A DNA stretch of 64,000 nt from the NCBI RefSeq assembly GCF_023630255.1, contig NZ_JALPRS010000001.1, forward strand, positions 2,170,001-2,234,000. The letters run 5' to 3'. This DNA comes from Pontibacter deserti (lineage in GTDB: Bacteria > Bacteroidota > Bacteroidia > Cytophagales > Hymenobacteraceae). The first letter of the stretch is position 1; each line of letters begins with the position of its first letter. This document shows, in pieces, positions 1 through 64,000 of this stretch. The position numbers and the translations under genes are program-made. The notes below the pieces were generated by a model. That model did not search any database. It worked only from the letters and a program-made list of their open reading frames with translations, and was not told the origin of the DNA.

Positions 1-237
1 TGGCACCCAGCAAGCCTCTTTGCCCTTCATACGCGCACGACGGATAAGCACATCCTGAATGGTATTGTTGAGCATGTGGCCCATGTGCAGCACACCGGTT
101 ACGTTTGGCGGCGGAATTACAATGGTGTAAGGCTCTTTTTTCGGGTTAGGCGTAGAGCGGAAGAAGCCACGCTCCATCCAGCTGCTGTACCACTTTTCTT
201 CTACTTCTTTGGGATTATATTTCTTTGCTATCGACAT
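1..237 (-). CDS. valS: Valine--tRNA ligase, N-terminal part (runs off the left edge)
   Basis: Charges tRNA-Val with valine in the cytoplasm. Only the first 79 codons lie in the window. The translation starts [17 protein letters not shown], then reaches the class I synthetase core with [16 protein letters not shown]; residues 51-54 (HMGH) are the HIGH-type ATP-binding signature, and the NVTG lead-in with the following [14 protein letters not shown] is typical of ValS rather than IleS or LeuS. The start is the ATG at 237. A TATTTTTG box upstream fits a -7 element. The family is unmistakable; the editing domain and KMSKS motif are outside the window. Confidence 0.96.
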
Positions 238-274
238 CTTATACTTTGTATTTGCTGCTAAATGCGCTAAAAAG

Positions 275-282
275 CAAAAATA
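275..282 (-). promoter_or_regulatory. Probable -7 promoter element for valS
   Basis: TATTTTTG on the minus strand fits the Bacteroidota -7 consensus TAnnTTTG and sits about 40 bases upstream of the valS start. No clear TTTG -33 box lies at the usual 19-base spacing, so this is a partial match. Confidence 0.45.
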
Positions 283-297
283 GGGAATTTAGCTTTA

Positions 298-322
298 ATT
301 GTTGATTGCTTATTGTTGATTG
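298..322. repeat. Direct repeat of ATTGTTGATTG
   Basis: The 11-mer ATTGTTGATTG occurs at 298-308 and again at 312-322 in the 212-base gap between valS and the pentapeptide gene. Similar TTGTTGATTG-like words recur near 37770 and, in complement, near 37950. Nothing else is recognisable in this gap. Confidence 0.5.
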
Positions 323-449
323 TTAAAAGTCTGAACCTTGATTAATGTCGATTTCCGGGATTAACTATAATCCTGCTATCACAAAATCCTCTAAACCCTG
401 ATTTAGAAAAGGGATCTTAAATAACCGAGCTAGTCCTATTAATCACTGA

Positions 450-1022
450 CTAAACGACCTGCAGGCTATACTTGGTGAGCAACCCCTGCAAGCTATATTG
501 CGAGAACTTTGCTTTTTTTATGGTGCTGATCTCAGGATCTATGTCAAAGTTATAGGCAGTGGACAGATCGGCGCCGGAAAGGTTGGTATAGTTAAATACA
601 GCTCGCTCCAGGTCTGTTGTATCAAATAAAGCGCTGGTCAGGGTAGTATCAGAAAAATCTACACCTTTTAGAGAAGACTTTACAAACTTGGTTTTCGCCA
701 TTTTCTTTTTCGCAAACGAAGCATAATCCAGCAGGCAATTCTCGAAGTATACTGTAAACAGGAAATCTTCACACTCGCTGAAGTTTATACCTGTAAGCTT
801 ACACTCTTTAAAAACCACGTTATTTATACTTGCATGGTTTAGCTTCAACATAGTCAGGTTACAGCCTATAAAAGTACAGTCGGTAAAACGGGTTTCGGCA
901 AAACTGCTGCCCGAAAAATCACAGTTCCTGAAGGTACAGTTTTCAAACTCTCTGTTCTTTATTTCTTTGTTTGGGTAAATTACCTTTTCAAAGGCTTTAT
1001 CTGCGTGAATCGATCCTTCCAT
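450..1022 (-). CDS. Pentapeptide repeat protein
   Basis: A 190-residue protein built almost entirely of A(D/N)LXX-like pentapeptides from about residue 25 to 175, for example CTFRNCDFSGSSF, TLTSALFDTTDLERAVF and NLSGADLSTAYNF. Such repeats fold as a right-handed quadrilateral beta-helix. Some family members mimic DNA and protect gyrase, but most have no known role, and nothing here allows a specific function. The ATG at 1022 was chosen because the longer frame up to 1136 runs back through the ferredoxin terminator into the ferredoxin gene. No signal peptide is visible, so it is probably cytoplasmic. It lies downstream of the ferredoxin gene on the same strand but behind a terminator. Confidence 0.85.
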   Translation of the reverse strand: MEGSIHADKAFEKVIYPNKEIKNREFENCTFRNCDFSGSSFAETRFTDCTFIGCNLTMLKLNHASINNVVFKECKLTGINFSECEDFLFTVYFENCLLDYASFAKKKMAKTKFVKSSLKGVDFSDTTLTSALFDTTDLERAVFNYTNLSGADLSTAYNFDIDPEISTIKKAKFSQYSLQGLLTKYSLQVV

Positions 1023-1052
1023 GTATGCGAATTTGGTAAGCAAAATAAACAA

Positions 1053-1080
1053 AAAAACCTGCCTTGCGAGACAGGTTTTT
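1053..1080 (-). terminator. Rho-independent terminator after the ferredoxin gene
   Basis: An A-tract, the stem AACCTG/CAGGTT and a T-tract form a symmetric hairpin 22 bases beyond the ferredoxin stop codon. It separates the ferredoxin gene from the pentapeptide gene. Confidence 0.8.
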
Positions 1081-62003: not shown

Positions 62004-62051
62004 TTGACTTTTTATATTGATTAACTTGTATAACGGAGTTATTTCAGGGTG

Positions 62052-62059
62052 CAAAACTA
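62052..62059 (-). promoter_or_regulatory. Probable -7 element of atpD
   Basis: TAGTTTTG on the minus strand fits TAnnTTTG, about 50 bases upstream of the chosen atpD start. It lies just inside the rejected longer frame, supporting the shorter start. Confidence 0.5.
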
Positions 62060-62239
62060 ATGCATAAATCTCTTAAATCCATGTAACACGACAAAAACTT
62101 TTAGTTTACTGTATATTATAAGGTTAGCTATAGTTACACACATTATTTACCAGGAAGCTGCAGCATTTAGAAAAGGCTGTTACAACGTATAACGTCGGGT
62201 AATAACAGTCTTTATGCTAAAAGAAGAGAGTTCTATATA

Positions 62240-62470
62240 CTATAGATGTTTCAGCAACTCTATCTGATCATCGTTAAGCAGAATATACCTGTTGTTAAAA
62301 GGGTTGGCATAAAATTTTTCGGCAATAATATACTCTCCGGTTGTTAGCTTATGGATATTGTAGCTAAACAAACTATTGGATCGCTCAATTACCAGCTCCG
62401 TTGTACTTAAGTCAAGCTGACGACCACAAGTGGTCGTGATCATTTCCTGGTTAGAAGTTGTTGTTGGCAT
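62240..62470 (-). CDS. Hypothetical protein, 76 residues
   Basis: A small soluble protein without signal peptide. The segment VIERSNSLFSYNIHKLTTGE (about 27-46) followed by YIIAEKFYANPFNNRYILLNDDQIELL (given here in two parts: YIIAEKFYANP, then NNRYILLNDDQIELL) reads as a compact beta-rich domain ending in a helix. No family is recognised. Isolated between atpD and purL; coding character is plausible but not proven. Confidence 0.5.
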   Translation of the reverse strand: MPTTTSNQEMITTTCGRQLDLSTTELVIERSNSLFSYNIHKLTTGEYIIAEKFYANPFNNRYILLNDDQIELLKHL

Positions 62471-62661
62471 AATAGTATAAGAATAAGGGGAGTTTTTTCT
62501 TTACGGAACAGCTATCAGTTGGTGACACTTCTGTAGCATAAATCATGATTTATTTTTTTCCTGACCCCGTTTCTTATTAAAATATACCATTGTTATAGCT
62601 GGCACTACAGGCTTAAAGTATAAAATCATCAAAACTGCTGTGCTCTTAAAGTATAAGTTCC

Positions 62662-62669
62662 TACTTTTG
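62662..62669 (+). promoter_or_regulatory. Probable -7 element of purL
   Basis: TACTTTTG fits TAnnTTTG and lies 28 bases upstream of the GTG start. The 226-base gap otherwise holds three AAGTATA-type words and no gene. Confidence 0.5.
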
Positions 62670-62697
62670 TTAATCCGTTAAATCAAGCCAGACAAAC

Positions 62698-64000
62698 GTG
62701 GAACAACAACTGACAACAGTAGAAACCGCCCAGAAGCTTGGCCTTCTGGAAGAGGAATTTGAAAAGATCAAACAGATTCTGGGTCGCACACCCAATTTTA
62801 CCGAGTTAAGTATCTTCTCCGTAATGTGGTCGGAGCACTGCTCTTACAAAAACTCCATAGTTTGGCTGAAAACACTGCCTAAAGACTCGCCACGTATGCT
62901 GGCAAAAGCAGGCGAAGAGAACGCCGGCCTTGTTGATATTGGAGATGGTTACGCCTGCAGCTTCAAAATAGAATCTCACAACCACCCGTCTGCTATTGAG
63001 CCTTACCAGGGCGCCGCAACCGGTGTGGGTGGTATAAACAGAGATATTTTCACCATGGGTGCCCGCCCGATCGCGCAGCTTAACTCGCTTCGCTTTGGCA
63101 ACCCACGATCTGAGAAAACACAGCGCTTATTAAGAGGTGTAGTTAAAGGCATTGGCGATTATGGCAATGCCTTTGGTATTCCTACGGTAGGTGGTGAGCT
63201 TTTCTTCGACGAGTGCTACAACATCAACCCACTTGTAAATGCTTTCTCTGCCGGTATCGTTAAAGTAGGCGAAACAGCTTCTGCCACCTCTTACGGTGTA
63301 GGCAACCCGGTATTTATAGTTGGTTCTGCCACCGGTAAAGACGGTATACACGGGGCTGCTTTTGCGTCTAAAGATATCACCGAAGATTCTGCCAAAGACC
63401 TTCCATCAGTTCAGGTAGGTGATCCGTTCCAGGAAAAACTTTTATTGGAAGCCACACTGGAAATCATTAAATCCGGCCACGTAATTGGTATGCAGGACAT
63501 GGGCGCTGCTGGCATAACTTGCTCTACCTCTGAGATGAGTGCTAAAGGCGAACACGGTATGGACATCTGGCTGGATAAAGTTCCTACCCGCCAGGCGAAC
63601 ATGGTGCCATTCGAAATTCTGCTTTCTGAGAGCCAGGAGCGCATGCTTATAGTGATGAAAAAAGGCTATGAGCAAACTATAAAAGGCATCTGCGATAAGT
63701 GGGACCTTTACTGCGAGCAGATTGGTGTGGTAACGGAAGGCGGCATGCTGCGCTACTACATGAATGGCGAACTGGCTGCCGAAGTACCTGCCAACGACCT
63801 TGTATTGGGTGGTGGTGCCCCGGTTTATCATAGAGAATACCGTGAGCCGGCTTATTTTCAGGAAGCCAAGAAATTTAATATAGAGCAGGTAGAAGAACCA
63901 CAGGATTACCAGGCTGTAGCTGAGTTCCTGACCACACACCCGAACATTGCCTCGAAGCGTTGGGTATACCGCCAGTATGATTCTATGGTTGGAACTGCCA
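62698..64000 (+). CDS. purL: Phosphoribosylformylglycinamidine synthase subunit PurL (runs off the right edge)
   Basis: Purine synthesis step 4, forming FGAM with ATP and ammonia delivered by PurQ. The first 434 codons are in the window, beginning with GTG at 62698 ([20 protein letters not shown]). The small-PurL motifs are clear: [17 protein letters not shown] (about 38-54), [20 protein letters not shown] (about 86-105), [10 protein letters not shown] (about 106-115) and [11 protein letters not shown] (about 164-174). It is a separate PurL of the Bacillus type, not the large fused enzyme. It has no ATG start, so it is easily missed. Confidence 0.94.

Follow-up and report, generated by a model that had tools for sequence, protein, structure and literature searches.

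Why do two heptamers, AAGTATA and AACTATA, recur on both strands throughout a stretch of bacterial chromosome, and what keeps them there? The stretch, called the window below, comprises 64,000 nucleotides of Pontibacter deserti (C1:2170001-2234000 of genome G000, 4.149 Mb), and a first-pass annotation had described the two heptamers and their complements as far commoner in it than expected by chance. The excess is real and strong, and larger than that annotation gave; the function of the word is a guess. Together written AASTATA (S = G or C), the heptamers occur 248 times on the two strands of the window (122 on plus, 126 on minus), and the excess persists against a third-order Markov model of the window, which predicts about 57 (AAGTATA, 155 observed, 31.9 expected; AACTATA, 93 observed, 25.3 expected). 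Every 4-kb stretch of the window contains the word (8-23 sites). In the whole genome there are 15,210 copies (7,656 forward, 7,554 reverse), or one site per 273 bases, compared with 1,396 for the word read backwards (699 and 697), which served as the control for genome-wide counts; among word-bearing Pontibacter genomes the spacing ranges from one site per about 240 to one per 1,050 bases. The purpose of genome-wide words such as HIP1 (highly iterated palindrome 1) is an unsettled question, on which this finding bears.

The unit of the word and its distribution in genes and gaps

The real unit is longer than the reported heptamer. Base 8 was A or G at 87% of the AAGTATA and 82% of the AACTATA sites of the window, and T at 3-5%, giving the 8-mer AASTATAR. 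AAGTATAA and AACTATAA were present in 80 and 50 copies in the window and their single-base variants in only 1-12, not counting variants that swap G and C at base 3 or differ at base 8. Each of the 15 positions listed in the first-pass annotation holds one of the four words, one of them a base away (20484), and the two stretches named there contain no further words. The features of the window are as follows.

1..64000, both strands: AASTATA, 248 copies spread over the entire window
8481..8487, plus strand: AAGTATA
8784..8790, minus strand: AAGTATA (TATACTT on the plus strand)
8802..8808, minus strand: AAGTATA (TATACTT on the plus strand)
8893..8899, minus strand: AACTATA (TATAGTT on the plus strand)
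8922..8928, plus strand: AAGTATA
9054..9060, plus strand: AACTATA
9093..9099, plus strand: AAGTATA
9139..9145, plus strand: AAGTATA
9388..9394, plus strand: AAGTATA
9523..9529, plus strand: AAGTATA
20025..20031, minus strand: AAGTATA (TATACTT on the plus strand), within the pyrD open reading frame (ORF)
20157..20163, minus strand: AACTATA (TATAGTT on the plus strand), within the pyrD ORF
20484..20490, plus strand: AACTATA, within the pyrD ORF (given as 20485 in the first-pass annotation)
20793..20799, minus strand: AAGTATA (TATACTT on the plus strand), within the pyrD ORF
20923..20929, minus strand: AAGTATA (TATACTT on the plus strand), directly outside the pyrD ORF
45949..46170, minus strand: 73-residue ORF without a Pfam family, with five words (22.5 per kb, the highest density among 57 predicted ORFs)
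19562..40902: stretch compared with the syntenic regions of 49 other Pontibacter genomes
60498..62054, minus strand: ORF of the ATP synthase beta subunit, a word-free contrast

The ten words of the first cluster all fall within a 432-residue ORF without a Pfam family (8244-9542, minus strand). Scans of the window for Rfam families and tRNAs returned no matches.

As had been noted from the window, the words lie on both strands, within genes and in gaps. For the gene counts we used 14 pieces (324 kb) of the P. deserti genome, with pieces L161, L162 and L179 left out, and a simple custom gene prediction that may miss genes. Sites were denser outside predicted genes (7.40 per kb) than inside (3.25 per kb), and they were found in convergent, tandem and divergent gaps (9.81, 7.05 and 7.18 per kb, respectively). 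The 269 predicted genes contained 836 sites, with every frame and either orientation in use, and 100 shuffles of synonymous codons gave 147 on average (standard deviation 10.7); the excess is 5.7-fold (z 64). Similar counts were obtained from 400 kb of another genome, G174, whose word is AACTATA (643 in-gene sites against 83 in shuffles; 7.89 per kb outside genes against 2.07 inside). The concentration of ATA codons in the word, suggested earlier, was confirmed (445 of 2,060 in the same pieces of the P. deserti genome), and conserved genes were indeed poor in it (ATP synthase beta, 0; FabF, 1; extracytoplasmic function sigma factor, 0). The four codon-pair readings proposed earlier (AGT-ATA, ACT-ATA, ATA-CTT and ATA-GTT) cover 474 of the 836 in-gene sites (57%), but the word occurs in the remaining frames as well. 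Ordinary bias in codons or codon pairs, or promoter and terminator signals, could account for the ATA codons and for the somewhat richer convergent gaps; these explanations are nevertheless as good as refuted, because of the excess over the shuffles, the higher density outside genes and the use of both orientations and all frames, and the word is common in the three types of gap alike.

Dialects, their exchange and the retention of sites

The assignment of the genome to Pontibacter is borne out by a window gene, whose closest loci were 12 of Pontibacter, with synteny, followed by Rufibacter and Hymenobacter. Across the family (204 genomes, of which Pontibacter contributes 50), the excess of AASTATA was limited to this genus and elsewhere did not exceed about 1.4 times the reversed word. 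The order gave a similar picture: of 390 sampled genomes, 18 were from Pontibacter, and 15 of these had ARSTATAR at no less than 4.9 times its reversed control, a ratio that stayed at or below 2.4 in the 372 others. No comparable word was seen in the 20-kb loci of Rufibacter (three) and Hymenobacter (one); other genera were not searched systematically for other words.

The survey of the genus used stretches from the 49 other genomes (47 of 20 kb and two of 12.7 kb) and showed that the general form of the word is NNN-TATAR, in which TATAR is common and the three preceding bases vary by branch. AAGTATAA is the commonest word in 19 of the 50 genomes, AGGTATAG in 12 and AACTATAG in seven, including the P. 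deserti genome, which is mixed (AAG, 155; AAC, 93 in the window), as is G191. One genome each carries GGGTATAA (G187; 33 copies in 100 kb against 2.9 expected and 0 reversed) and ATATATAR (G181). In G181, the 20-kb stretch of which has a G+C content of 56%, ATATATAR occurs 2,572 and 2,531 times on the two strands genome-wide against 532 and 550 reversed, compared with 95-377 per strand in the other 49 genomes, and all but two of 177 TA runs of at least six bases in 120 kb end at eight. A loss of the word throughout the clade G159/G173/G181/G187 had been considered, and more sequence proved it partly wrong, since G187 and G181 have the words just given. In the ten remaining genomes the word is weak or empty; the ratio of AASTATA to the reversed word was 4.3 in G166, 3.0 in G162, 2.1 in G183, 1.4-1.7 in G193, G159, G173, G182 and G175, 1.2 in G154 and 1.0 in G179.

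In the 12 genomes of the AGG dialect, each strand has 2,866-4,796 copies of AGGTATA, compared with 110-189 reversed (17.7- to 38-fold); the ratio of 1.3 to 6.7 in the other 38 suggests either that the reversed control is no perfect zero or that AGGTATA is a weaker cognate there. Relative to dinucleotide expectation, the leading 8-mer reached 44 in the AAG, 51 in the AAC, 72 in the AGG and 107 in the ATA dialect and 20 in the P. deserti genome, whereas its single-base variants outside the last two bases were mostly far lower, near 1-5. On a tree of the 50 Pontibacter and three Rufibacter genomes (a concatenation of at most ten proteins, some data missing), the AAC word occupies one clade and the AGG word one clade, with AAG as the background of the crown.

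Other short dispersed repeats were seen in pieces of relatives (L125, L141, L122, L154 and L158): ATTACGAA/ATTCGTAA in G167, CTCTCTAC/GTAGAGA in G159, CTCTCTAA in G171, ACTCATTC/AATGAGTG in G181 and TCACTCA in G175.

At aligned positions one dialect's word is exchanged for another's (47 of the 50 genomes, all but G162, G166 and G187). Opposite an AAGTATA of an AAG-dialect genome, AGG-dialect genomes have AGGTATA in 20.8% of 4,393 cases and AAGTATA in 3.5%; the same A-to-G exchange was found in 4.6% of cases before the other 4-mers pooled and in 2.6% before AT-only 4-mers. AAG was exchanged for AAC in 8.6% of cases before TATA and 0.9% before other 4-mers, and AAC for AGG, which takes two changes, in 6.8% and 0.2%, respectively. 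Toward the class without a word, in which G181 with its ATATATAR had been wrongly included, there was no excess (2.8% against 3.8%). Exchange in G181 and G187 was also above control, at 2-3 distinct sites each. The exchange depended on the reading frame: AAG to AGG reached 44.5% and 31.8% in two synonymous frames and 41.8% in the frame synonymous for leucine codons, and in the three frames in which the residue is altered it was 0 of 869, 2.9% and 1.0%, so the protein sequence sets limits to the exchange. No frame leaves the residue unchanged when AAG becomes AAC, and in coding DNA that exchange occurred almost only as serine to threonine (27%, 21 distinct sites) or threonine to serine (19%, 37 sites); these conservative changes seem to be accepted along with the word exchange.

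Between relatives of the same dialect, individual sites persisted much more often than control words matched for G+C, retention being higher in all 247 pairs with at least 20 aligned sites (out of 258 pairs in existence). Mean retention of the core was 0.51 in the AAG, 0.53 in the AAC and 0.65 in the AGG dialect, against 0.18, 0.28 and 0.29 for the controls. Among same-dialect pairs, 66 were at least 82% identical, and in these 69% of 4,356 aligned 7-base cores were unchanged, compared with 33% of 60,718 control words. The constraint ends at the edges of the word: flanking 5-base bins were no better kept beside retained sites (0.81-0.85) or changed sites (0.78-0.84) than those of control words (0.86-0.87 and 0.83). 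The changes at sites were ordinary point changes, with single differences making up 56% of them (control, 53%).

Placement on the chromosome and possible explanations

Three second replicons nearly lack the word. The AAG-dialect genomes G165, G147 and G148 each have a second contig, presumed to be a second replicon, and in 11 pieces of these contigs we counted 83 AASTATA and 61 reversed words, with 1.5-7.0 AASTATA per 10 kb. One of the contigs, G165:C2 (73,841 bases, L168-L171), is a conjugative replicon with genes for a relaxase, TraG, TraM and an ArdC-like anti-restriction protein, and has no enrichment. Within the P. deserti chromosome, the word is scarce in two islands. One (L161:8000-20000; G000:C1:408000-420000) has a tyrosine integrase at its start and a GH25 lysozyme-like ORF, and the other (L162:1-12000; G000:C1:700000-712000; in a piece of 38% G+C) is a glycosyltransferase/O-antigen-type surface-polysaccharide cluster. 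Word density seems to mark recent acquisitions.

The G174 chromosome, for which origin, terminus and arms were inferred from GC skew, has the word in all 20 places sampled (L187-L206; 49-107 words in each 20 kb). Density is higher near the presumed origin, at 2.9-3.3 Mb (75-107 per 20 kb), than near the presumed terminus, at 0.5-1.4 Mb (49-72). There was no strong polarity along the replication arms or toward the terminus, with 800 leading and 729 lagging sites (52%) in G174 and 408 and 433 in nine pieces of the P. deserti genome. The P. deserti genome showed weak helical phasing at best (periods of 10-11, 0.03-0.07; noise about 0.04); pooled sets gave larger peaks, which can stem from shared ancestry. 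The overlapping palindrome AASTATASTT is in excess (35 in the nine pieces).

The explanation that we tentatively favor, at a little short of even chances, is that NNN-TATAR is a word of chromosomal self-recognition, read by a putative protein whose specificity can change and kept by weak selection or biased inheritance. A putative DNA-binding protein would read the word at thousands of chromosomal sites, and weak selection or biased inheritance acting across them would maintain it. When the contact of the protein with bases 1-3 changes, the genome would slowly follow by single point mutations where coding permits. As for function, the word may mark chromosomal DNA as that of kin, so that kin DNA would be preferred in uptake or recombination; this part is by analogy with the Neisseria DNA uptake sequence (DUS) dialects, and we hold it barely less probable. 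Unlike that of the Neisseria DUS, the receptor would not be part of a type IV pilus. In favor of this explanation are the excess over all three controls (Markov model, reversed word and codon shuffles), the dialects on the tree, the retention and exchange of sites, the presence in all places sampled on one chromosome with near absence from second replicons, and the parallels with DUS. More doubtful is the bolder proposal of a new kind of chromosome-wide self-recognition code, made up of an invariant TATAR half and three bases that serve as the address, in which the putative reader would belong neither to the pilins nor to the known methyltransferases and the address would have shifted at least four times in the genus, dragging thousands of sites with it.

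Several observations weigh against this self-recognition explanation. None of six Pfam families tested over the 50 Pontibacter genomes (PF01555, PF07669, PF00437, PF02086, PF03772 and PF12705) was present in all word-bearing genomes and absent elsewhere. In particular, the 50 genomes contained no full-length ATPase of type IV pili or type II secretion (PF00437, T2SSE), and the matches spanned at most 66 of 370 positions, so that a type IV pilus with its receptor is not evident and pilus-based uptake was rejected. ComEC (PF03772) was found in all 50 genomes, with or without the word. The gaps between sites are slightly clustered rather than even, which gives no sign of saturation of an uptake signal. 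A one-parameter mutation-selection model with constant weak selection, its strength set by abundance, predicted a retention of 0.77 for AAG, 0.81 for AAC and 0.87 for AGG, more than seen (for AAG, 0.51, with a control of 0.18), indicating that the true process is not so simple; note that the pair counts come from species that share sites, and hence are not independent, and from one 20-kb region. A few single non-TATA 4-mers (102-484 cases) matched or exceeded the exchange rates at TATA, the highest values being 46.6% (AAG to AGG, 262 cases) and 17.8% (AAG to AAC, 152 cases); such values are probably single sites counted in many pairs.

Alternatively, the word may be bound by a nucleoid or chromosome-organizing protein that recognizes its sequence, with additive sites under weak selection and a drifting specificity. 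The presence of sites all round the chromosome and their greater density on the presumed origin side, the lack of even spacing, the near absence from second replicons and the confinement of constraint to the word are all consistent with this; however, phasing is weak at best, no protein was found for it, and five dialects in one genus would be fast for an abundant structural protein, and we regard it as unlikely. The asymmetry of this chromosomal 7-8-mer and its scarcity on second replicons would also suit a Chi-like site, which tells an AddAB/RecBCD-type helicase-nuclease to spare and recombine the cell's own DNA, and an AddB-like PD-(D/E)XK protein (PF12705, about 980 residues) is encoded in all 50 genomes. 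However, this enzyme, like ComEC, does not separate word-bearing from word-free species, strand polarity is almost lacking and the word is far denser than known Chi sites, leaving the Chi-like explanation distinctly improbable.

Less probable still is that a methyltransferase-linked process, such as the methylation-dependent mismatch repair proposed for HIP1, makes and keeps the word. The penultimate A of ARSTATAR is in a position often modified by adenine methyltransferases of asymmetric sites. For HIP words an association with methyltransferases is described (PMC4390886). On the other hand, the methylation role suggested in the first-pass annotation is weakened by the asymmetry of the word and by the families searched: PF01555 was matched in 31 of the 50 genomes but neither in the P. 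deserti genome nor in four other AACTATAG genomes, PF02086 in 13 but not in that of P. deserti, and PF07669 patchily, with one weak match in P. deserti; PF02384 and PF00145 were outside this search. We give scarcely any more credence, and if anything slightly less, to a pure mutation bias that creates the word with nothing to protect it. That sites change by ordinary point mutations agrees with such a bias, but retention above control in 247 of 247 pairs disfavors it, because creating words would not slow their loss, and the second replicons of the same strains are nearly without the word.

With 50 comparable species, at least five words, and mixed and word-free cases, the gain, exchange and loss of the word can be traced on the tree, and its recognizer can be sought by comparing Pontibacter genomes. 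If it is true that the word governs the acceptance of kin DNA, gene flow would meet a barrier set by a single protein. The density of the word also looks usable for detecting recently acquired DNA in Pontibacter.

Comparison with known systems

In the portions available of the literature searched, neither a word of this type in Pontibacter nor an uptake sequence in Bacteroidetes was found. Selection on HIP1 and its periodicity are reportedly the subject of a 2018 paper. The likeness to HIP1 proposed in the first-pass annotation holds in that a dense 8-mer is in great excess genome-wide, in genes and gaps and on both strands. HIP words, however, are palindromes tied to methyltransferases (PMC4390886), whereas neither AASTATAR nor its dialects are palindromic and no fitting methyltransferase was seen in the three families searched. 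The excess is of the same order, as that paper gives HIP1 an observed/expected ratio of 55-228 by base frequency, compared with 20-107 in Pontibacter by dinucleotide expectation, and it describes other words replacing HIP1 in some cyanobacterial relatives, as in Pontibacter (PMC4390886). The exchange of at least five dialects at orthologous positions suggests a behavior more like that of uptake sequences than of HIP1.

Chi, the FtsK-orienting polar sequences (KOPS) and the SpoIIIE recognition sequences (SRS) are asymmetric 5-8-mers over-represented on chromosomes and strongly polar. A RecBCD/AddAB-type enzyme is present in Pontibacter, and the window encodes an FtsK-type DNA translocase with a gamma domain (17175-19796, minus strand), the domain that reads the polar KOPS words in other bacteria. 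Nevertheless, the leading/lagging ratio of 52:48 amounts to an absence of polarity, and therefore Chi and KOPS were rejected as usual members of their classes. The uptake signal sequence (USS) of Pasteurellaceae is a genome-wide asymmetric uptake word with subtypes, as in Pontibacter, at a lower density and with pilus-based uptake.

The DUS dialects of Neisseriaceae appear to be the nearest parallel in behavior. We do not claim membership, because the receptor-bearing pilus is not evident, no type IV pilus ATPase having been seen in the 50 genomes, and uptake is suggested by analogy only. DUS are 10-12-mers, whereas the Pontibacter word is an 8-mer with a TATA core, and the densest Pontibacter genomes hold more copies per Mb than the up to 5,918 in 2.4 Mb given for DUS in PMC3630211. 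According to the same paper, the dialects of DUS have an invariant core with other bases variable, and the S. muelleri genome mixes two of them (PMC3630211). The Pontibacter word resembles DUS in being a short asymmetric word in great excess in both orientations, with thousands of copies, branch-specific dialects that follow the phylogeny around an invariant core, and genomes in which two dialects are mixed.

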